Positions 34,900 to 47,510 of a stretch of 64,000 bases of DNA are shown here, one piece after another. Numbering within the stretch: the stretch's first letter is position 1; every line of letters begins with the position of its first letter. Source of the DNA: Terriglobia bacterium (GTDB lineage Bacteria > Acidobacteriota > Terriglobia > JAIQFV01); the NCBI GenBank assembly GCA_020072965.1, contig JAIQFY010000006.1, forward strand, positions 64,001-128,000. The letters are read 5' to 3'. A program made the position numbers and the translations under genes. The notes beneath the pieces are model-generated. The model did not search any database. It had not been told where the DNA came from and was given only the letters and a program-made list of their open reading frames with translations.

Positions 34900-35572
34900 C
34901 CCCGCCGTTATCCCTGGTTCTGAAGTGGATACCTCGTTTCTAATAACAAACCTCGAACCGCGGTTTGGAATCCTTCAAGCGGGCTGGTCGTAGTCGGGAA
35001 GAACTTCAAGATTACGTCTCCATTTCCCGGAGGGGGGTTACCGCCTCGAGTTCAAGGCCCGGAGCCGTCTTGAAAGCTCTCCCTGTCTTGGTTCAGCCTG
35101 AAATGGAGAAGCGACGTTCTCCATTAGTGAGTATTCCGCCCTTCGGGCGGGGATTTTCAAGGCATGGGGTCTTTCGATCCGATGGAGGTTGGGCGGCGCA
35201 AGAACGAGCTCTCACGCCCCCGTTCATCGTCTCGATGAGCCCACCGGGATATCCCTCGGCATGGTTGCGTCCCCGCAGTGCCCGCTTCCGTTTCGCCCGG
35301 CAAAATCATTGTAACTCCGCAACGAGCTGCCGTTTCTCAACATCCGGTTTGCCCATGACTCCGCCGGAACCCAGACCGGCCAGACCCGAATCGTGAGTTG
35401 TGATCGCCTGGTTTCGACAACTATCTATGCTATTTGGGGTCTGCCAATAAACGAGTTGTACACGTCAGGCCCTTGCCGCCCATTGATCCGATATCCGTCC
35501 GAGGCAAATCTTAGCGTGATTTTTCGGTCAAAAGTTGAGTAATCCGCCGGGGTTTGATCGTATACAGGATAT
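34900..35572. other. 673-base region without a supported gene
   Basis: Between the PBP1B gene and the second ECF sigma gene. A 143-codon frame (34965-35396) has Arg/Pro/Ser-rich random-looking composition, no ribosome-binding site and no recognisable domain. Two small hairpins are visible: ATGGAGAA/TTCTCCAT (35103-35124) and CGCCC/GGGCG near 35148. The minus strand also shows nothing recognisable. It may hold decayed sequence. Confidence 0.4.
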
Positions 35573-36175
35573 ATGTTGGCTCTTCCCATGACATTGAATA
35601 CGACAGCCGAAACCGAAACGGCAAAGATTGCGCGAGGCTTACGTGAGAGGGATATGGAGCTTCTTGCAGACCTGGTGGAGCGCCGTCAGCATCGACTGGT
35701 GCGCTACCTGCTATACCTCACCGGGAGGCGAGAGTATGCGGAGGACCTTGCGCAGGAGACCTGGATCCGCGTGCTGCAACGGGGCAGCCAGTACAACGGG
35801 CGGCAGCGGTTTGATCCATGGCTATTCGCGATCGCCCGCAATTTGGCAATAGATTACCTCCGGAAAAAACGAAAAGCGGTGGCAACAGTATCCTTGCCAA
35901 ATGATCGCGATGCAATGCTGCTGTTACCCTCTTCCGATCCTTCCCCATTCGAAGCCGCGGCCCGAAGCGAAGACGCAATGCGTCTGGCCGGCCGGCTGCA
36001 GATTCTGCCACCGCTGTATCGCGAGGCTATGCTGCTGAGGTTTCAAGAAGACCTGTCTCTTGCGGAGATGGCTCAGGTCTTGGGCGCCCCTACTACAACG
36101 GTGACGTCCAGAATCTATCGCGGTCTTGCAGCACTGAGATCCGCATTTGAGGAGGGTGATTCGCATGGAGGGTGA
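35573..36175 (+). CDS. ECF RNA polymerase sigma factor, second module
   Basis: 200 residues. Region 2 contains REYAEDLAQETWIRVLQ and FDPWLFAIARNLAIDYLRKK, and region 4 PPLYREAMLLRFQEDLSLAE with TTTVTSRIYRGLAAL. It begins a four-gene unit with a zinc-finger anti-sigma factor. It is only distantly similar to the sigma factor at 20316-20891. The ATG at 35573 has AGGA three bases upstream; 35588 is an alternative. Confidence 0.9.
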   Translation: MLALPMTLNTTAETETAKIARGLRERDMELLADLVERRQHRLVRYLLYLTGRREYAEDLAQETWIRVLQRGSQYNGRQRFDPWLFAIARNLAIDYLRKKRKAVATVSLPNDRDAMLLLPSSDPSPFEAAARSEDAMRLAGRLQILPPLYREAMLLRFQEDLSLAEMAQVLGAPTTTVTSRIYRGLAALRSAFEEGDSHGG

Positions 36176-36623
36176 CAAGAGATTTCGCGAGCTTATCGAC
36201 AGGTCTTTCGTAGAAGAGGTTTCAGAGGACGAAAGACAGCTCATCCATGACCACATCCGCGACTGTGATGGCTGCAAGCGCTACCTCGAGCTAACTGCGC
36301 GTACGATTCGGGGGTTGCGGGAATTCACCTTTACGAGTGAACCAGATTCGAATGCCCAGGTCCGTGAGATTCTTGCGCATCATACCGAGACAATGCGCCA
36401 GCACAACGTGCAATTCAAGGTCTGGGCTGCATTTGCTGTAGCGCTCTCGATGTCAATTGTGGGATCGGCACTTGTCTACCAGGTGGCCAAGCTCCTGACG
36501 GTCCCAATGCATTTCGACACTGCTCAAGTCCAGGCAGGCGTGCTCGTCTTTTGGCTGCTGCCATCTTTTTGCTCGGCCTTACGTCTGCTCGCGGCGCCTG
36601 GAGAGAATAGAGGTATTGCATGA
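36165..36623 (+). CDS. Zinc-finger anti-sigma factor, second module
   Basis: 152 residues. The zf-HC2 motif is H30-xxx-C34-xx-C37 in HDHIRDCDGCKRYLEL. Two membrane helices follow (about 88-110 and 125-140). The ATG at 36165 has GAGGAGG in front and overlaps the sigma gene end by 11 bases, indicating coupled expression. It presumably binds and silences that sigma factor. Confidence 0.82.
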   Translation: MEGDKRFRELIDRSFVEEVSEDERQLIHDHIRDCDGCKRYLELTARTIRGLREFTFTSEPDSNAQVREILAHHTETMRQHNVQFKVWAAFAVALSMSIVGSALVYQVAKLLTVPMHFDTAQVQAGVLVFWLLPSFCSALRLLAAPGENRGIA

Positions 36624-37126
36624 CACAGCAATCGGCGGTGCTTTTGATAGCGTTCTTGGCCGGGCTTGTAGTTGCGGCTGTCTTGTTGGGAACCGCAAGA
36701 CGGAATGTTCTACCCAGGTCTGCAATGGTCATCGCAGCACTGGCGATCCCGATTTGGGTAGTCTATTTTGCTTCCAGCCAGGGCCGTTCCTTACTTGCTT
36801 CCAAAGGATTTCTCAGTACCATGCCAGAAGCGCTTTGGTTTGGCTTGACGTTTGGCGTCTTCACCGCGGCTTTTTTCCTTGCCCTCGGATATATTTATGG
36901 GGACGCAAAAAGGCGTCAAATGCCTGCTTGGGCCTGGGTGATTGCCGCTTTCCTCATACCCAATTTGATTGGATTCATCCTTTATTTTGTGTTCCGAGGG
37001 CCTCTCCTTGGGCCTTGCAGTTCCTGTGGCAAGCCTATTCGAGGGGGAGAAGCATTCTGCTCACACTGCGGATGCTCGCAGGGTTCCAGTATCGGACGCA
37101 TCACAGCTGACAATCGCACAATCTGA
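36620..37126 (+). CDS. Membrane protein with C-terminal zinc ribbon
   Basis: 168 residues. Four hydrophobic helices (about 7-24, 35-52, 70-92, 105-127) precede a zinc-ribbon tail CSSCGKPIRGGEAFCSHCG. It overlaps the anti-sigma stop by four bases (ATGA), so it is part of that operon. The layout resembles PLD-nuclease-N-like and zinc-ribbon membrane sensors. The function is unknown; involvement in the signal pathway is inferred from coupling. Confidence 0.65.
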   Translation: MTQQSAVLLIAFLAGLVVAAVLLGTARRNVLPRSAMVIAALAIPIWVVYFASSQGRSLLASKGFLSTMPEALWFGLTFGVFTAAFFLALGYIYGDAKRRQMPAWAWVIAAFLIPNLIGFILYFVFRGPLLGPCSSCGKPIRGGEAFCSHCGCSQGSSIGRITADNRTI

Positions 37127-37174
37127 AGTAAAAAAGGTGGTAATAACCTTGCATCGCACAAAACGGGGGACGGT

Positions 37175-37594
37175 ATGAAACGTGAGCGCGCCTTACAGGT
37201 AGTGTTGGTGTTGGTGGGCTTGTTTTATTGCTTTTGGGGCTATCTCCTGTTCGACGATCTGTGGCACTCTAGGTGGCTTAGCGGGCATAGTGACGTCATG
37301 CCGATGTTCCTGAGCCTTAACACGGCGCTTGGGGTCTGTCTGTTGGTGGCCGTTAATCAGCCGGCCAAGCATCGCTTGATGATCGCCTATGGGGCGTGGT
37401 CAAGCCTTGCCCATGGGTTCACGATGACAATCATGTCGGCGCAGGCCGTGGCGCACGGGATGCACAGGAAGGATAGCCCCCAGGACATTGTGATCTTTGG
37501 CGTGATTGGAGTCACGCTGCTTGCACTCCTCCCGGCAAAACAACCATCGCCGGCCGGCGCGCCTATCAGTGAGCCGCGCGTTGCCGAACGCTAG
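37175..37594 (+). CDS. Four-helix membrane protein, DUF6632-like
   Basis: 139 residues with four membrane helices (about 9-27, 43-61, 68-90, 105-118) and a short Pro-rich tail. The beginning MKRERALQVVLVLVGLFY and the middle MIAYGAWSSLAHGFTMTIMS recall a small family of unknown function (DUF6632-like; modest certainty). It is 48 bases after the zinc-ribbon gene and probably the last member of the second ECF unit. Confidence 0.6.
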   Translation: MKRERALQVVLVLVGLFYCFWGYLLFDDLWHSRWLSGHSDVMPMFLSLNTALGVCLLVAVNQPAKHRLMIAYGAWSSLAHGFTMTIMSAQAVAHGMHRKDSPQDIVIFGVIGVTLLALLPAKQPSPAGAPISEPRVAER

Positions 37595-37738
37595 AGGACC
37601 TGGTCCACCGCCGCGCGCATACCGAGATGCAGGGACTCCTCACGGAAGCGCGGCGATTCGCTTCGTTGACTATATGCTTGGCCTTGCCGCTGTGTTAATT
37701 CTGCATTGTCGGCTAACGGGAGCAATCCGTTTCATCCA

Positions 37739-38683
37739 TCACGCCGCCCCCTGGCGGCGATTCTTCCGCTGTTCCTTCGCCGCGTCCAACTTCCGATCCC
37801 GCTCGGCTTGAATCTCCTGCTGGTGCCCGGCGAGCATGTCCTTTGGAGTGATGTAGCCGATGGCACTGTTCAGGCGAACGTTGTTGTAATGCTCCACATA
37901 ACCCTCTACCAGGCGCCGTGCATCTTCCAGCGACAGCGGCGTTCCCGGCCGAATGCACTCCCCTTTCAACGACTTGTGCCAGCGCTCAATCTTGCCGTTC
38001 GACTGTGGATAATAAGGGGAGGTTCGGACGTGCGTCATGCCCGAGATGCGAATGAACTCCTTGAAGTCGCGAGCGATGAACTACGGGCCCTTGTCGGAGA
38101 TGATTCGCGGCTTGGCTTCCAGGTACTTCTCCTTGGCTCGCTGCAGGATCACTTCGACATCGGTTTCTCGCATAGACTCACGCAGATCCCAATGCACGAG
38201 GAAACGACTGAATCCATCCAGAATGCTGCACAAGTAATAGAAGGTGCCGCTCAGGTTGATGTAGGAAATGTCGATATGCCAGTGCTGATGGGGCTGCAGC
38301 GGCTGCTCGAAACCGGTTCCCTTGCGCGATGGCTTGCTCTTCCACCGGGATAATAATCCAGCTTGCTTCAACACCCGCCAAACACTCGCCGGACTGACGG
38401 CCACAACGTCAGCGTCGAGCATCATGAACGTCAGCCGCCGATAACCTTCCAGCGGGTTCTTCAGATGGAACTCGATGATTGCTTCTTTCTCCCACGGTTC
38501 CAACCAGAAATCACGGGGAACCCAACCGTTGTGCTCGTTGACGCACCCGTACCGCTGCCGCCAGTCATAGAACTTGCTGGCGGTCACGCCCAGCCACGGG
38601 ATGAACCGTCCGACGCCGATCTCGGCCTTCTCCGACCAGCGCCGGACGAAATCCACGACTAGATCCCGTACATCATGCGGCAC
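37739..38683 (-). pseudogene. IS3-type transposase OrfB, broken by an in-frame TAG
   Basis: The frame reads a DDE integrase core: HWHIDISYINLSGTFYYL (first Asp), RIISDKGP (second Asp) and SNGKIERWHKSLKG (Glu). At 38081-38083 a TAG interrupts it directly after RIISDKGP, where the family has Gln (usually DNGPQF), so a single CAG-to-TAG change explains it. Downstream the same frame continues with FIARDFKEFIRISGMTHVRT. The frame stays open upstream of the GTG at 38683 to about 38734, covering the slippery A-run used for -1 frameshifting from orfA. The resulting protein would lack the last catalytic residue. Confidence 0.85.
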
Positions 38684-38694
38684 CCAGATCCCGG

Positions 38695-39009
38695 TTAGAG
38701 TTCCCCAAGACTTTTTTTTAGCGCGATGTGCTCAGCCATCAGCTCAGCCAGGACCTCGTCCTTGGTCTGCACCTTCTTCTCCAAGAACTCGATCCGTTTC
38801 GGCTTCTCCTCCACTTGGCGGTGGGGACGCGCTTGAGACTGAAAAGCGGCGGCTCCGTTCTCGAACAGTTCTTTCTGCCAGCGGTAGAACATTGTTGGCC
38901 GCAGGCCTAATTCTTCACACAGCTCCGAGACGGGTACTTTGTCCACAAGATGCCGCCTCAAGATGGCTACTTTTTCTTCTGGTGTGAAATGCTTCCGTTC
39001 CTTCCTCAT
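38695..39009 (-). CDS. IS3-type transposase OrfA
   Basis: 104 residues. The helix-turn-helix region FTPEEKVAILRRHLVDKVPV and GLRPTMFYRWQKELFENG binds the element ends, and a C-terminal leucine-zipper-like helix (IEFLEKKVQTKDEVLAELM) mediates multimerisation. Near the 3' end the minus strand has eight A followed by G (plus coordinates about 38711-38719), a classical slippery site. Shifting -1 there leads into the orfB frame. Confidence 0.8.
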   Translation of the reverse strand: MRKERKHFTPEEKVAILRRHLVDKVPVSELCEELGLRPTMFYRWQKELFENGAAAFQSQARPHRQVEEKPKRIEFLEKKVQTKDEVLAELMAEHIALKKSLGEL

Positions 39010-39114
39010 ACGTTCGCTCCGTTATCTTAACGGAGGAACGCTTTCTCCAGTTCCAACTGAGGCGGGACATCCCCACCACTGTTCCTAATTCCCGTAGCAA
39101 GGCAATCTGAGATC

Positions 39115-39147
39115 TCAAATTTGGGCAATAAAGTACTTGACTCATCC
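39115..39147. repeat. Left target repeat and terminal inverted repeat of the cargo transposon
   Basis: 39115-39122 is CAAATTTG (target duplication) and 39123-39147 the left terminal inverted repeat (GGCAATAAAGTACTTGACTC and onward to CATCCA). It also carries TTGACT, a possible outward or inward -35-like sequence. Confidence 0.85.
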
Positions 39148-39224
39148 AAGCGGAAGCGAGAGGATGAGCGGGGCGGGGGTGCGTTTTGAACCCCGTTCAA
39201 GATGGGACCCTAGCTTTATTCAGA

Positions 39225-40046
39225 ATGTTGAGTCTTAACGCCGACGCGCTTCGTCGTCGGAATAGGCGGGGGCGCAGTGTGCTGACTGGAAACCTAGCGT
39301 ATCTATTTTTCGACGAGAGCGGAAAATGGCAGGATCGAGATTTCATATGTTTATGCGCTTACTTGTCTGATGACCCTCATTGGGAATGGTTCTTGCGCGA
39401 ATGGAGCAGCACATTCGAGCGGCACCATCTTAACAGCCTCCACATGACAACTTTTTACCATACAGCCAAAAAGAAAGGATGGAGCGACGAGAAGCAAAAC
39501 CAAGTTCTCGGCGAATTCGCTTCCGTCATTCGGGACTCAATTCTCATGGGCTTTTCCGTTGGATTAGATGCACGACACTATCGTTCATTGCCAAAGAGCG
39601 CCAGAGGAGCCTTGGGAGACCCTGCCGCCGCATGTCTTCAGCGCATCCTGAGAATGATCCGGAAGCGCCTAGTTTCCGAGGGCTATGACGGAAGAATCTC
39701 CATCACGATGGACGAGGAAGAGGGCGCAGTGGTGAACCTATACAACTCACTGGTGCGCTTGAGGAAAATAGACCCCCTTTTGGGCAAGTATGTCGGGGCG
39801 GTTTGTTTTGCTGACGATGAATACATTCTTCCGCTGCAAGCCGCCGACATGCTAGCCAATCTCACGAGCAGGTGGTTCTCCGATATAAAAAACGGAAAGG
39901 CTACCAGAGAAGAAATGCCGAAGATATTAGGCAGTCTCGTTACCCGACCAGGAACACAATATGGACTAGACTACACATCGGAGATGTGGGCCGCAGAGGA
40001 TCTCAATCGTGCGTTGAACCACTTCTTGGGAAGGAAAAAAAGATGA
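39225..40046 (+). CDS. DUF3800 protein (transposon cargo)
   Basis: 273 residues from the ATG at 39225; other possible starts are TTG 39186 and GTG 39279, the latter nearest the usual family start. The motif AYLFFDESGKW is the DUF3800 hallmark, with further conserved SITMDEEEG and FADDEYILPLQAADMLAN. These acidic patches resemble an RNase H-like fold, so a nuclease activity is suspected but unproven. DUF3800 genes are often found in mobile and defence-rich regions. The stop overlaps the next ATG (ATGA at 40043). Confidence 0.8.
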   Translation: MLSLNADALRRRNRRGRSVLTGNLAYLFFDESGKWQDRDFICLCAYLSDDPHWEWFLREWSSTFERHHLNSLHMTTFYHTAKKKGWSDEKQNQVLGEFASVIRDSILMGFSVGLDARHYRSLPKSARGALGDPAAACLQRILRMIRKRLVSEGYDGRISITMDEEEGAVVNLYNSLVRLRKIDPLLGKYVGAVCFADDEYILPLQAADMLANLTSRWFSDIKNGKATREEMPKILGSLVTRPGTQYGLDYTSEMWAAEDLNRALNHFLGRKKR

Positions 40047-40189
40047 GGACAAGGACATCCAAAGAGTTCAGCAATTTCGACTCAGCGGTCGGAAAGATTC
40101 TCTCTGTCTCCCATGAGGAACTACAACGCAGGGAGGCCAAGTGGAAGAAGCAACGCCAACGAAAAAAGCGTAACGCACTAAAAGCATAA
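40043..40189 (+). CDS. 48-residue basic protein coupled to DUF3800
   Basis: MRTRTSKEFSNFDSAVGKIL is followed by a strongly basic helical tail (EAKWKKQRQRKKRNALKA). The ATG overlaps the DUF3800 stop as ATGA, with AAGGAAAAA upstream, arguing that it is a real translated gene. Small partners of this kind often follow DUF3800 genes. The function is unknown. Confidence 0.6.
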   Translation: MRTRTSKEFSNFDSAVGKILSVSHEELQRREAKWKKQRQRKKRNALKA

Positions 40190-40272
40190 ATATCGTGCAC
40201 AATTTCAAATCACAAACAGAACTTTATTGCACGGAACAAATGCCGGATTCGTATCCACACGGAGGGTATTTC

Positions 40273-40596
40273 ATGACAAAAGGTGAGGAAGATGCAGCAA
40301 TCGGTCGCATGGTATCTGAGTACGGAGACGCCAAAAAAAAGCTGCTAGTCTTAACAGAAGAAGCTCACAGGCTGGGAGTCATGTTATCGGAGCTGGGCCT
40401 GTGTCTCGCGACGAATCCGCAAAACCTCAGCATTGATGGTGAACCAATGAATCCTAGCTTCTCCAAATTCCGACACGAATTAAAATCCCGTTCACTCGAT
40501 GCTGAAAAACTCAAGAGCCTGGTGAACGACATCCGAAAGACAATTCTGGATATCGAGCGACTTGAACCCAAGGTGAAGGATCTTGGGCTTGTATGA
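40273..40596 (+). CDS. Hypothetical helical protein (transposon cargo)
   Basis: 107 residues from the ATG at 40273, which has GGAGGG upstream; an in-frame ATG-less extension to 40195 is not favoured. The predicted structure is almost wholly alpha-helical with heptad-like leucines (KKKLLVLTEEAHRLGVMLSE; AEKLKSLVNDIRKTILDIER), suggesting a coiled coil. No family is recognised. It overlaps the next gene by four bases (ATGA), so both are translated together. Confidence 0.6.
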   Translation: MTKGEEDAAIGRMVSEYGDAKKKLLVLTEEAHRLGVMLSELGLCLATNPQNLSIDGEPMNPSFSKFRHELKSRSLDAEKLKSLVNDIRKTILDIERLEPKVKDLGLV

Positions 40597-41198
40597 AGCA
40601 CACACTTTCCAGGAGGAGGATGCTCATGGGGAATCTACTTCCCACCGCCGTGATGCTTTTTCTGACATATCTGACCCCCCAGGTTTTTGCGGCACAGCCG
40701 CAGGCAGTGAAAGATTCCTTATTCCTTTCGGTAAACCTCCACCTTGGGATGCCAGAAGGACCGACAATTAACGCACTGGCCGATCATTACAAGGTTGAAA
40801 AAATTAAGGGCACATCAGAGAATGCAACCTCGTCTAGCTGGATTTTGGTTTCGAAAAACGAAACTGCGCACGGAATCGACGGTGGAGTAAGTTTTAGAAA
40901 TGGGAAACTAACACAGGCTTACAAATCTTGGACTCCGGGCAATGCGGATTCGACCCTAGAATTAACAGACGCATTGCTTGGAGTGGTAGAACATTTTGAG
41001 GGCGAACATAGAAATGTCTGTGTGATTTACCATCAATACATCAATACGCCTGGAGACCGAGGGTACGTAATAACGGTGAGATGCGGTAACAAGTACATCC
41101 TAATTTCTGCTAATCGTGGAACTCACGGAAACACTGCGGACGTTACAGAATTTCTTGAATCTCCCGACTTTTTTGATTCAACTCAGAGGAGAAAATGA
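40593..41198 (+). CDS. Hypothetical exported protein (transposon cargo)
   Basis: 201 residues. A long basic N-region and hydrophobic core ending in VFAAQ form a signal peptide (cleavage near residue 34). The mature part is mixed alpha/beta with SWILVSKN, GGVSFRNGKLTQAYKSW and two cysteines (CVIYHQY and VRCGNKYILIS) that could form a disulfide. No family is recognised. It is the last cargo gene and is followed by a hairpin at 41263. Confidence 0.6.
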   Translation: MKHTLSRRRMLMGNLLPTAVMLFLTYLTPQVFAAQPQAVKDSLFLSVNLHLGMPEGPTINALADHYKVEKIKGTSENATSSSWILVSKNETAHGIDGGVSFRNGKLTQAYKSWTPGNADSTLELTDALLGVVEHFEGEHRNVCVIYHQYINTPGDRGYVITVRCGNKYILISANRGTHGNTADVTEFLESPDFFDSTQRRK

Positions 41199-41262
41199 TC
41201 AGCAGGTGTGATCTCATAGGAAGGAAAAGAAGACACAGAAGAAGATGGTGAAAAATAATAAA

Positions 41263-41281
41263 CGGGCTAGGATTTAGCCCG
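41263..41281. terminator. Weak terminator-like hairpin between cargo and transposase
   Basis: CGGGCTA, loop GGATT, TAGCCCG: a perfect 7-bp stem lying between the convergent cargo genes and the transposase gene. It lacks a good T-run after the plus-strand stem (CTTCCC), but on the minus strand the stem is followed by TTTATTATTTTTCACC, a reasonable U-tract. It thus probably ends the transposase transcript. Confidence 0.5.
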
Positions 41282-41312
41282 CTTCCCGCGACCTTGGCGC
41301 TTTAGTTCTTTT

Positions 41313-42263
41313 TCAGTTCGGTCGCGTTTCTTCGGATTGGGTTTTTCCAGTGAGTCTATTCCAGGTGAGGCGCTTGCCCTCAACCTGAGAAACCGCCAAA
41401 TCGAATCGCCCGCTGTCATTCAGGTCTTGGCGGTTATTGAAACGATAGGCTTGCTCATCAAGGTAACGGAACAAATGAAAAGGTTCGACACTCACGTAGG
41501 TTCCCTTGATGCCTCTCTTCAAGAGGCTCCAGTAATTTTCCAATCCGTTGGTGTGAACCGCTCCATCAACATAGGCAACCGCATGGTCAACTACCTGATG
41601 CACATATTCTCCCGCGAGTCCGGTGTAGGATCGAAGTGCATCGCTATAGAGAGCGGACCCCGCTTTAACGTGTTTGCGAACCCGAGACTGGAGTGCCTTC
41701 TTTCCTCGATTCGGAATGACGAGGGTTCGGATTTTTTCGCCGCGCTTCAGGATGCCCATGACCGGGGTTTTATCCTTTGCTCCTGTTCCCGTGATTCGCA
41801 TTTTCCGTTTGTCAAGATGCATGTTTCTAGAAAGTCCGCCGATGAAGGTTTCGTCCACTTCGACCTCTCCACCGACCTTTCCGCCATCGTTGTCCTGCAA
41901 GGCCAGACGAATTCGATGCATCATAAACCATGCGGTCTTTTGGGTGACTCCAAGACCTCGTGCAATTTCATAACTGCTAATTCCGTTCTTGCAATTGGTC
42001 AACATCCAGACGGCCACGAGCCACTTGTCAAGTCCGATAGGAGAATCTTCAAAGATCGTCCCGACCTTTACCGAGAATTGGCGTTTGGGATGATGGCTTC
42101 CACATTGCCAGACGCGATGCGATTGATTGAAAGTAACTTTTTCGGAGCCGCAGGTTGGGCAGGTCACGCCATCGGGCCAGCGCTTTGTCACAAGATAGTT
42201 GATGCAATTCTCAGGCTTCGAAAAGTATTTGATTGCCTGCTGGAGTGTTTTAGGTTCGATCAT
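41313..42263 (-). CDS. IS1595 family (ISXO2-like) transposase
   Basis: 316 residues. An N-terminal zinc ribbon (CPTCGSEKVTFNQSHRVWQC) recognises DNA. The catalytic core has EVEVDETFIGG (first Asp), ALYSDALRSY (second Asp) and AVHTNGLENYWSLLKRGIKG (final acidic or Asn position). GISSYEIARGLGVTQKTAWF is the typical helix-turn-helix before the core. It looks intact. Its element ends are described at 39123-42328. It is transcribed toward the cargo genes. Confidence 0.92.
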   Translation of the reverse strand: MIEPKTLQQAIKYFSKPENCINYLVTKRWPDGVTCPTCGSEKVTFNQSHRVWQCGSHHPKRQFSVKVGTIFEDSPIGLDKWLVAVWMLTNCKNGISSYEIARGLGVTQKTAWFMMHRIRLALQDNDGGKVGGEVEVDETFIGGLSRNMHLDKRKMRITGTGAKDKTPVMGILKRGEKIRTLVIPNRGKKALQSRVRKHVKAGSALYSDALRSYTGLAGEYVHQVVDHAVAYVDGAVHTNGLENYWSLLKRGIKGTYVSVEPFHLFRYLDEQAYRFNNRQDLNDSGRFDLAVSQVEGKRLTWNRLTGKTQSEETRPN

Positions 42264-42303
42264 TTTTTTATCTCCTTACAGGCAAAAATATAGCATGAGT
42301 AAG

Positions 42304-42336
42304 TGGATGAGTCAAGTAATTTATTGCCCAAATTTG
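42304..42336. repeat. Right terminal inverted repeat and target duplication of the cargo transposon
   Basis: 42304-42328 is the right terminal inverted repeat (inverted copy of 39123-39147, one mismatch) and 42329-42336 is CAAATTTG, matching the left duplication. Confidence 0.85.
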
Positions 42337-42580
42337 ATATTTCAGACGCGAACTAATCTGAGATCTCAAATTTGAAATTTCAGATTCTACCGGTCGGTCA
42401 CTAGAGATTTGCGGGCGCTGCGATCGGCCCGTGCCTTGGCCAACGCATCCGCGACGGGATGGGTTAGAAACACTTCCCTCGACCGGTGATCGCACGATTT
42501 TCGTTTCTTTCCGCAAAGATCTCTGCGAAGACTCCCCGAATTGCCGCCTCTCCAAGCGCGTTGCACATCCATAATGCAAT
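42337..42580. repeat. AT-rich palindromic repeat and flank right of the transposon
   Basis: 42355-42386 is an imperfect 32-bp palindrome (AATCTGAGATCTC to AAATTTCAGATT). Removing the transposon rebuilds a second copy directly upstream (39103-39122 joined to 42337-42345), so the element landed in one of two tandem copies. The rest up to the GT39 gene contains only short frames without features, including a 65-codon minus frame (42387-42584) not considered real. Confidence 0.55.
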
Positions 42581-44032: not shown

Positions 44033-44096
44033 CTTGTGGCAGTGATTGATGGTCGCAGTGCATGCTGCGGGCCGGTTTGGGCACCGTCCCTATCCT

Positions 44097-47000
44097 ATGG
44101 CAGATCTTAACTCACATCGACCTGTTTTCTTTGATCCTCATCAACGTCGCTGGTGGCGATGGCGACAGGGTTTCTTCACCCTGGCCGCGCTCCTGGCCGT
44201 CGTCATGGTGGTCTTTGTTGCGAATGTTCTGAGTCAGCCTCGCCTGACTTCGTTAGGTCTTCCGGATCTGACGCGGGCCTATCGCCCGGTCCCGGGTGAA
44301 CTCTCAAAACCGGGGTTGTCGCCCAAGGAACGTCGCAAGCGCCGACTCAGCCGGATGATAACCCGACTGGAAAACCTGAACAAGGGTCAAGGGGCCAAAC
44401 AGTCCCAGGTCGACACCTCGATCAAGGAATTCTCCGCTCTCATGATCGCCTTCTTTGTCAACTGGGATGCAACCAGCTTGACCTCCTTCCTCGCCCACTA
44501 CGATAAGATCGACGTTCTCGCACCCGAATGGCTGCAACTGGGAGACGCCAACGGAACCCTCATTAAGAGGCATGAGGAAGAGAAAGCCAGGATTGTCCGT
44601 GACTTCATCAAGCATGGCCAGGTCGACGTCAAGATCATGCCGCTCCTGAACAACTTCAATGGCCAGGTTTGGGAAAGCGAATTACTCGCCAAATTCCTGG
44701 CGAATCCTAACGCCCGCAAGCGGTTGATTGACGATCTCGTTCCCTTCCTGAAGGAGAATGATTTCATCGGCGTGAACGTCGATTTCGAAAATATACCGCG
44801 CAAATCCCAGGGAGATCTTCACGCCTTCATGCAGGAACTCTACCATGCGCTGCACACGGAAAACCTCCTGGTTTCGCAGGACCTCCCCGCCTCCGACAGT
44901 GAATTCGATTATGGATTTTATGCCGCCGTAAACGATTTCATCGTCCTGATGAATTATGATCAACACTGGGAAAACTCGGATCCCGGCCCGGTGGCATCAC
45001 AGGATTGGTTTCTCAGCAATGTTCAGGACCGTCTCGAGAAAATTCCGCACGACAAGCTGGTCATTGCACTCGCAAATTATGGGTATGATTGGGGTGCTCT
45101 GGGGAAAAAGCGTTATTCCGGGAAGTCCATCACCTTTCAGGATGCCATGCGCACAGCCAAGGAGTCTGACGCCAGTCCCCAACTGGATCCGGACTCCCTG
45201 AACCCAAGCTTCGAATACTACGACGAGAACAATCGAGTCCACCAGGTGTGGTTCCTCGATGGGGTGACCATTTTCAACCAGATTGCTCAGACAAAGGCCC
45301 TGTCCCCGCACGGCTATGCCCTCTGGCGCCTCGGGTCGGAAGATCCCTCCGTCTGGCACGTCTTTGCAGAGTTCCAGACAGACTCCAAAGTCGCCGATCA
45401 GATGCGGCCGCTGAAGTACGGATATGATGTGGACTACAACGGGGAAGGCGAGTTGCTGACGATCCAGAATGTGCCCCAGGCGGGAGAGCGTGATCTCACC
45501 CTCGATCCCCAAATCAATCTGGTAACGGACGAATCATTCCCGAAGCTTCCTTTGGGCTATCTCATTGACCGGCGGGGCCGACAAAAAAACAAGATGGCGC
45601 TCACCTTCGATGACGGCCCGGATCCCCGCTACACGCCGCAGGTCCTCGATATCCTCAAAGAGTACAAGGCCCCGGGCACCTTTTTCCTCGTGGGCCTGGA
45701 AGCCGAGAGCAACATTGGAATTGTGCGGAGGATGGTGGACGAGGGGCATGAGATCGGGAACCACACTTTCACACATCCCAATATCGGTGATGTTTCCGGG
45801 CGACAGCTTGGAATTGAATTGAACCTGACACAGCGGCTATTCGAGAGCAAGCTCGGAAGGGTATCGCTGTTCTTCCGGCCCCCTTATGGCGTCGATTCGG
45901 AGCCGGAGGTCCCTGCGGAGGTCCAGCCCCTCGAAGTCGTGCAGAAGATGGGATACCTGCTGGTCGGGGAGCGGCCGGATTCTAATGATTGGTATGTCCG
46001 TGACCCGGATGAAATTGTCAAGACGGTGATTGAACAGGCATCCCGCGGAAACGTGCTGCTCTTGCACGACGCCGGCGGAAATCGTGATGCCACGGTGCTG
46101 GCGCTCCCCCGGATCATTACGGAGCTCCGCAAGAACGGTTACGAACTGGTGTCGCTGTCTGCGCTGTTGGGCCGGTCCCGCGATGCCGTCATGCCTCCGG
46201 TGCCCGGCAATGAGCAATGGCGGGCCCGTCTCGATAATGTCGCCTTCACCTTCTTCAGCGCTCTGGATCATGCCTTTCACTGGCTGTTTCTGATTGGAAT
46301 CGTTTTTGGAATCGGCCGGTTCATTTTCATTGGGACACTGGCCGTCATCCAGGCGATCCTGCGTCACCGTGAGAAATTTAATGAGAATTTTACTCCCTTC
46401 GTGAGCGTCATTGTGCCGGCGCATAATGAGGAAAAGGTGATCGTGCGGACGATCGCCGCCCTACTCCGGTCGGACTATCCCCGCTTCGATGTCATCGTCG
46501 TGGATGATGGCTCCACCGATGCCACGGCAGCCCGCGTCTCGGAGGTTTTCGGCAAGGATCCGCGGGTGCGTCTCTTTGTTCAGGAAAACACCGGAAAGGC
46601 GGGTGCCCTGAATTATGGCCTGGAGCAGTCTGTCTCCGAACTCATTATCGCTCTGGACGCCGACACCCTCTTCGATCGGGATACAATGCGCAAGCTGGTG
46701 CGTCATTTCGAGAAGGAGGAAGTGGGGGCGGTGGCCGGCAATACCAAGGTGGGGAACCGTGTCAACCTGCTCACCCGGTGGCAGGCCCTGGAATACATCA
46801 CTTCGCAGAACCTGGACCGCCGGGCCTTTGATGCGCTGAACTGCATTACGGTCGTTCCGGGCGCCGTGGGGGCCTGGCGTCGCGATCTCATCCAGAAAGT
46901 GGGTGGCTTCACCAACGACACTCTGGCGGAAGACACGGATTTGACCATCTCCATTCGCCGTCTCGGCTACGACATTGTATTTGAAGACGAAGCACTGGCG

Positions 47001-47510
47001 TACACGGAAGCGCCGGACACCATTCGGAACTTCATCAAACAGCGCTTCCGCTGGACGTTTGGAACGATGCAATCGGTGTGGAAACATCGAGACACCCTGT
47101 TTCGCCGCCGCTACGGCTCGCTCGGCTGGATCGCGCTGCCGAACATCGTGACCTTTCAGATTCTCTTCCCGCTGATCTCTCCGCTCATGGATTTTCTCAT
47201 GATCGTGGCGGTCGCGCTGGCCGGACTCCAGCATCATTATCATGGGACTTCCTATTCCGCCACCAACCTGCTGCGCATCGCTTTGTTTTATGCCATCTTT
47301 CTCGCCGTCGACTACTTCACCTGTGTGCTCGCATTCGTTCTGGAGTGGAAGGAAGATTGGAAACTGCTGTTATGGCTCTTCTGGCAGCGGCTGTTGTACC
47401 GCCAGGTGATGTATTACATCGCGGCGAAATCGGTGGTGGCCGCGCTGCGGGGCCGCTCCGTCGCCTGGGCCAAGGTGGAACGCAAAGCCACCGTGCCGAT
47501 GGGGCGATGA
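44097..47510 (+). CDS. GH18-like + polysaccharide deacetylase + GT2 fusion
   Basis: 1137 residues from the ATG at 44097. A membrane helix (about 22-45) leads to a GH18/YaaH-like barrel (about 110-430) with FIGVNVDFENIP around residue 224, keeping the catalytic DxE. A NodB-type deacetylase domain (about 490-690) has MALTFDDGPDPR near 502 and GNHTFTHPNI near 555, both metal-binding motifs. After helices near 725-755, a processive GT2 domain (about 765-1010) has VSVIVPAHNEEKV, VVDDGSTDAT, LAEDTDL and QRFRW. Four more helices end the protein. It looks like a single-chain machine that makes, deacetylates and trims a beta-linked N-acetylhexosamine polymer (inference). Confidence 0.85.
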   Translation: MADLNSHRPVFFDPHQRRWWRWRQGFFTLAALLAVVMVVFVANVLSQPRLTSLGLPDLTRAYRPVPGELSKPGLSPKERRKRRLSRMITRLENLNKGQGAKQSQVDTSIKEFSALMIAFFVNWDATSLTSFLAHYDKIDVLAPEWLQLGDANGTLIKRHEEEKARIVRDFIKHGQVDVKIMPLLNNFNGQVWESELLAKFLANPNARKRLIDDLVPFLKENDFIGVNVDFENIPRKSQGDLHAFMQELYHALHTENLLVSQDLPASDSEFDYGFYAAVNDFIVLMNYDQHWENSDPGPVASQDWFLSNVQDRLEKIPHDKLVIALANYGYDWGALGKKRYSGKSITFQDAMRTAKESDASPQLDPDSLNPSFEYYDENNRVHQVWFLDGVTIFNQIAQTKALSPHGYALWRLGSEDPSVWHVFAEFQTDSKVADQMRPLKYGYDVDYNGEGELLTIQNVPQAGERDLTLDPQINLVTDESFPKLPLGYLIDRRGRQKNKMALTFDDGPDPRYTPQVLDILKEYKAPGTFFLVGLEAESNIGIVRRMVDEGHEIGNHTFTHPNIGDVSGRQLGIELNLTQRLFESKLGRVSLFFRPPYGVDSEPEVPAEVQPLEVVQKMGYLLVGERPDSNDWYVRDPDEIVKTVIEQASRGNVLLLHDAGGNRDATVLALPRIITELRKNGYELVSLSALLGRSRDAVMPPVPGNEQWRARLDNVAFTFFSALDHAFHWLFLIGIVFGIGRFIFIGTLAVIQAILRHREKFNENFTPFVSVIVPAHNEEKVIVRTIAALLRSDYPRFDVIVVDDGSTDATAARVSEVFGKDPRVRLFVQENTGKAGALNYGLEQSVSELIIALDADTLFDRDTMRKLVRHFEKEEVGAVAGNTKVGNRVNLLTRWQALEYITSQNLDRRAFDALNCITVVPGAVGAWRRDLIQKVGGFTNDTLAEDTDLTISIRRLGYDIVFEDEALAYTEAPDTIRNFIKQRFRWTFGTMQSVWKHRDTLFRRRYGSLGWIALPNIVTFQILFPLISPLMDFLMIVAVALAGLQHHYHGTSYSATNLLRIALFYAIFLAVDYFTCVLAFVLEWKEDWKLLLWLFWQRLLYRQVMYYIAAKSVVAALRGRSVAWAKVERKATVPMGR

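Follow-up and report, generated by a model that had tools for sequence, protein, structure and literature searches.

Elements of the IS1595 family that carry passenger genes are already known (PMC5704250, PMC7986276), and two of them, MTnSag1 and tISCpe8, the latter with lincomycin resistance, have been described as mobilizable (PMC5704250). The transposon analyzed here occupies positions 39124–42328 (3205 bp, from sequence reading and a repeat search) of a 64,000-nucleotide stretch, referred to as the window, of contig JAIQFY010000006.1 from a Terriglobia bacterium. It resembles tISCpe8 and MTnSag1 in having an IS1595 DDE transposase, 25-bp inverted repeats, flanking direct repeats, and genes that are not concerned with transposition (PMC5704250), but those are single elements, whereas the window element belongs to a whole clade with a near-constant small gene and swapped cargo of defense type. 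The transposase domains, with their zinc ribbon, and the layout of terminal inverted repeats (TIRs) and target-site duplications (TSDs) are those of ordinary IS1595 (ISXO2-like) insertion sequences, from which the clade differs in containing no bare TSD-matched element; unlike the clade, distant IS1595 transposases (about 37% identity) are not accompanied by the small gene. We consider it probable, at roughly three chances in four, that the element is a member of an IS1595 clade with a constant backbone of transposase and small protein and a refillable cargo slot that often holds genes of anti-phage type. Tn7-like transposons carry exchangeable sets of defense genes. The clade is like them in having such an exchangeable set on a transposon, but the window element has a single DDE transposase, from another family, and no TnsABCDE or CRISPR genes, and the clade elements are tiny (2–6 kb) and use a loose AT-palindrome target as compared with the fixed attachment site of Tn7-like elements.

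The window element is a real, complete transposon with intact-looking ends. The left (cargo-side) TIR is at 39124–39148 on the forward strand (GGCAATAAAGTACTTGACTCATCCA), an end of the same type as in related elements, and the right (transposase-side) TIR is at 42304–42328 on the reverse strand (the complement of GGCAATAAATTACTTGACTCATCCA); both are 25 bp in length and they differ at 1 of 25 positions. The left TSD, CAAATTTG, at 39116–39123, is identical to the right TSD at 42329–42336, which directly abuts the right TIR. In a genome of the same genus, in which the right flank (from 42561 on) is 87% identical to the window, the element is absent and the site reads GCAAGGCAATCGGAGATTT-CAAATTTG-AGATTTCAGAGG... 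with a single CAAATTTG; this comparison is based on ~20 bp of common left flank and a long right flank, and farther to the left the two genomes differ. The initial annotation, made from the sequence of the window, had described an IS1595-type transposon with cargo and well-preserved ends, comprising 25-bp inverted repeats with one mismatch, an 8-bp direct repeat on either side, and an intact ISXO2-like transposase, and had proposed comparison with an empty site. All of these features are present, as is the empty site with one copy of the direct repeat; the coordinates given were exact on the right side, but the starts of the left TSD (39115) and left TIR (39123) were each 1 base too low.

The transposase (316 residues, 41313–42263, reverse strand) is complete, with an intact N-terminal zinc ribbon and DDE domain (Pfam Zn_ribbon_IS1595, E 1.5e-9; DDE_Tnp_IS1595, E 3e-38), and it matches the NCBIfam IS1595 model with E 1e-54 and 185 bits, as compared with a cut-off of 75. 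Together with the inverted repeats of ~25 bp and the 8-bp target duplication, these domains place the element in the IS1595 family. A promoter, TTGACT-17-TATATT (42287–42315, reverse strand), precedes the transposase gene and has its −35 box inside the right TIR; among 59 elements, a −10 box matching at least 4 of 6 positions is found at the transposase end in 52, at the cargo end in 28, and in shuffled sequence in 13. No cargo promoter is evident in the window element. The intact transposase, promoter, and ends make it plausible that the element is mobile today; the genome has one copy.

Aligned close transposases were used to scan genomes of bacteria and archaea, which gave 80 loci, most from Acidobacteriota and a few from other groups. 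By pairing inverted repeats, 71 elements were delimited. Because 57 of these have an exact 8-bp direct repeat, and because the empty site is found in the same-genus genome, the arrangement in the window is more than a chance one. Elements with matching TSDs range from 1.7 to 5.9 kb and all contain cargo; with a minimum of 1.7 kb, cargo carriage is the rule in the clade and not the exception that the initial annotation, generalizing from IS1595 elements, had taken it to be. Target sites favor CWAATTWG, and the mean palindromicity of the TSDs is 4.35 of 8 positions, as compared with 2.06 for random flank 8-mers; the palindromic TSD in the window reflects this tendency. The clade is a distinct, widespread, and barely described IS1595 group. 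In IMG/VR viral contigs, 126 relatives of the transposase were confirmed (L189–L268), many of them in complete elements with target duplications; plasmid records contained only distant IS1595 transposases with less than 60% identity.

The second component of the backbone is a gene for a 48-residue protein (40043–40189, forward strand), the start of which overlaps the stop codon of the preceding cargo gene in an ATGA sequence; almost every element in the clade has a homologue. The predicted family members have 44–87 residues, a helical core (F..f......lsVphsei..r), and a basic C-terminal tail; the model of the window protein has two predicted helices (residues 5–20 and 24–47). There is no Pfam or NCBIfam family for this protein, its model has no fold match in the PDB, and a tblastn search of plasmids with one member gave no match. 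At E<1e-3, a hidden Markov model (HMM) built only from blast-linked members detects the gene in 67 of the 71 elements; after iteration the count is 71, as compared with 2 matches in 538 kb of flanking sequence and none in the reversed elements. Genome-wide, the small gene lies within 5 kb of 44 of 65 clade transposases, whereas among 77 IS1595 transposases of greater distance it does so for 2: one that is truncated and lies at a contig end, and one that adjoins a clade transposase. Similarly, 14 loci initially classed as distant IS1595 gave one match, which is a truncated clade member. Twelve of 20 regions around transposases with no listed small gene could be delimited, and six of those were positive on direct search. 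In an independent, held-out set of viral contigs the gene is present in 35 of 38 delimited elements, including all 20 whose transposase shares at least 55% identity with the query. Differences between small genes are distributed over codon positions 1, 2, and 3 as 26, 20, and 54%, and this excess at the third position identifies the open reading frame (ORF) as a protein gene; the flank, reversed-sequence, codon-position, and held-out controls exclude its being a chance feature or artefact. Two loci have unusual arrangements. At L098:3212-4267 a second pair of DUF3800 and small genes, probably a neighboring or decayed copy, lies ~2 kb from the delimited element, and at L183 (G094:C2:1095911-1097970) 162 bp separate a clade transposase from a distant IS1595 transposase on the opposite strand, with no small gene detected in the element delimited there.

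Distances between transposases are correlated with those between small proteins (Mantel r=0.45, p=0.0005; r 0.44 within the 19 elements with DUF3800) and not with those between DUF3800 proteins (r=-0.06, p=0.69). These tests, and the co-occurrence of the small gene with other cargo, exclude its being a private partner of DUF3800. In DNA comparisons of element pairs, identity is 71–90% over the transposase end and the greater part of the small gene, and most pairs also match over the last 25–40 bp at the far end, with unrelated cargo between; in some pairs the transposase and small genes are themselves separated by extra cargo. In the pair L082 and L077, for example, a 90% match over positions 1–1249 and a 95% match over the final 40 bp enclose 1.4–3 kb of unrelated genes. 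The nearest relative of the window element, L043 (transposase 75% identical), has the same gene order (DUF3800, small gene, two genes, transposase), but the identity between the DUF3800 proteins is only 20%, and the two further genes differ.

The cargo of the clade is enriched in families of defense type over flanking genes, clearly in kind and roughly in number. Identical scans of the cargo and of 103 length-capped flanking genes matched 202 and 53 PADLOC models, respectively, the flank matches being mostly weaker; these numbers are rough, as one protein can be covered by many PADLOC models. The families identified by PADLOC and Pfam in the cargo include GmrSD, RelA/SpoT (PDC-S33; CapRel-like), AIPR/AbiU, MmeI, C5 and N6 methylases, Vsr, Mrr, SocA/Panacea, and PD-Lambda-5, which was matched over its full length, whereas the Pfam families of the flanking genes are mostly housekeeping. 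DUF3800 is present in 19–20 of the 71 elements; its HMM matches 20 of the 71, as compared with one match in the flanks. In a further cargo family of ~300 residues, an RX4H motif is present in 12 of 12 members and is suggestive of HEPN ribonucleases. Two large cargo proteins, L078:1227-3065 (613 residues) and L081:7171-8187 (339 residues), have no Pfam or PADLOC match and are candidate defense genes.

In the window element four ORFs are opposite in direction to the transposase, in agreement with the four reverse-oriented cargo genes of the initial annotation, except that one of them, 40043–40189, is the near-constant partner of the transposase and not exchangeable cargo. Because non-transposition genes lie inside its inverted repeats, the element qualifies as a passenger-carrying insertion sequence (tIS), and a bare autonomous insertion sequence is excluded. 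Cargo gene 1 encodes the DUF3800 protein (39228–40046, forward strand, from ATG 39228; the longest ORF starts at TTG 39186), with a Pfam match of E 3e-10 and 41.4 bits against a gathering score of 21. It contains the acidic motifs DES and LQAADMLA, and two Asp residues are invariant across the DUF3800 proteins of 19 elements. No convincing sequence relatives were found in the PDB, and in fold comparison of its AlphaFold model (pLDDT score 76) the 24 best PDB matches are RNase HII, HIII, and H2 entries (best E 2e-4), so that an RNase HII/HIII-like fold is predicted. An RNase H-like fold has been predicted previously for DUF3800 (PMC10910872). The protein shares this fold and the Pfam family with the DUF3800 proteins associated with Cas12a2 and noncoding RNA (PMC10910872), but the window element has no CRISPR, TPR, or known RNA motif, and its DUF3800 gene stands beside a transposase. 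Cargo gene 2 (40273–40596, forward strand, ~107 residues, ATG 40273 behind GGAGG; the longest ORF starts at 40195) has no family match and one relative, in another element (L067). Cargo gene 3 (orf4; 40593–41198, forward strand, 201 residues) has a probable start at ATG 40626 behind GGAGGAGG, and its product looks exported, judging from an N-terminal stretch like a signal peptide; orf4 was rejected as a gene of the clade, with relatives found outside such elements.

The sequences show a near-constant backbone made up of the two 25-bp ends, the ISXO2-like DDE transposase, and the helical, basic small protein of about 45–75 residues. The transposase would be expressed from the promoter with its −35 box in the right end. 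Insertion is of DDE type, with duplication of 8 bp, preferably into AT-rich palindromes near CWAATTWG, in this case a palindromic intergenic repeat. The small protein may aid or regulate transposition. Between the backbone and the far 25-bp end lies an exchangeable slot, the contents of which are unrelated from element to element and often include nucleases, methylases, and RX4H proteins of anti-phage type; in the window it contains the gene for the DUF3800 protein with its predicted RNase H fold and two further genes. New cargo may enter when a different far end is joined to the backbone or when elements recombine with each other. Cargo of defense type may repay the host through protection from other mobile DNA. 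As a wider and tentative proposal, which we regard as possible but somewhat short of an even chance, the clade may represent a new class of tiny cassette-exchange transposons in which a transposase and a dedicated helper shuttle anti-phage genes among bacteria and onto viral genomes.

The backbone-and-slot reading has to be weighed against alternatives. The element might be an ordinary tIS of the IS1595 family whose genes hitch-hike at random, the small ORF being a further passenger that has no role and recurs by common descent. Such elements are known in the family (PMC5704250, PMC7986276), and captured orf4 has relatives elsewhere, but neutral passengers would be lost, whereas the small gene is kept almost everywhere with a coding signature despite exchange of its neighbors, and the cargo is skewed toward defense-type families relative to the flanking genes; we regard this explanation as unlikely. 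That the small protein is instead a cargo component, an antitoxin or partner of the DUF3800 or RX4H proteins in an addiction module that stabilizes the element, would fit the way in which its gene often closes the cargo operon at the 3′ end and overlaps or adjoins the final cargo gene, as in the ATGA overlap with DUF3800 here, and the toxin-antitoxin-like character of the RX4H proteins and SocA/Panacea. Against this, the protein occurs with many unrelated cargo families and follows the transposase rather than DUF3800, and 28 of 44 small genes are 24–72 bp from the transposase gene, which leaves the antitoxin explanation improbable. It is very unlikely that DUF3800 works within an RNA-guided or RNA-linked system for retention of the element, comparable with TnpB and omega RNA or the Rfam DUF3800 RNA motifs: the predicted RNase H-like fold and the linkage of DUF3800 to putative noncoding RNAs and Cas12a2 loci (PMC10910872; Rfam DUF3800 families) point in that direction, but the element has no Rfam match even at E 5 and 13 related loci have no relevant one, the leader folds no better than shuffled sequences (z -0.64), and DUF3800 is present in only 19–20 of the 71 elements.

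Several observations weigh against a constant backbone with a defense-type slot. Sampling is patterned, in that the 80 loci from genomes are those most closely related to one query set, and at transposase identities of ~45–55% the small gene was often undetected (several loci). Most cargo ORFs have no family match and the flank controls also hold a few defense-like matches. PADLOC found no defense match among the cargo of the window, and a defense role there is therefore based on the clade and on the predicted fold of DUF3800. Finally, the genome has no second copy of the element, and no transposition was observed.

In the literature searched, no text links IS1595 with phage-defense cargo or with a constant small partner, but the scope excludes the founding 2009 paper (Siguier, Gagnevin, Chandler) and the tISCpe8 paper, and the small gene may have been mentioned before. 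The constant small partner and the modular defense-like cargo appear to be undescribed, whereas carriage of passengers by IS1595 is itself known. Insertion sequences are usually viewed as selfish, with occasional passengers; here a whole clade, from Acidobacteriota, some other phyla, and viral contigs, carries cargo and provides a concrete case of a minimal transposon turning into a gene shuttle. Its cargo slot is a bounded place in which to find new defense genes, and the small protein is a new, unnamed family for testing in transposition.

Between the convergent cargo operon and transposase gene there is a terminator-like hairpin, AAGCGGGCTAAATCCTAGCCCGTTT followed by a T-rich stretch (41260–41284, reverse strand); one was found as compared with 3.7 in shuffled sequences, and alone it is not significant. 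The palindromic sequence AATCTGAGATCTCAAATTTGAAATTTCAGATT, at 39104–39123 and 42329–42386, is a small dispersed repeat with two more near-copies elsewhere in the genome and another copy at the orthologous empty site of the same-genus genome. From sequence reading, the repeat search, and the same-genus comparison, 42355–42386 is an intact copy of the repeat that the element entered, a paralogous empty site. Directly to the left of the element, 37739–39009 (reverse strand) contains ORFs that read as IS3-like (a helix-turn-helix OrfA and pieces of an integrase-type OrfB), and the stretch 35079–39096 is missing at the corresponding site of the same-genus genome. To the right, an ORF of 1154 residues (44046–47510, forward strand) resembles a fusion of glycoside-hydrolase-like, polysaccharide-deacetylase-like, and membrane glycosyltransferase parts.

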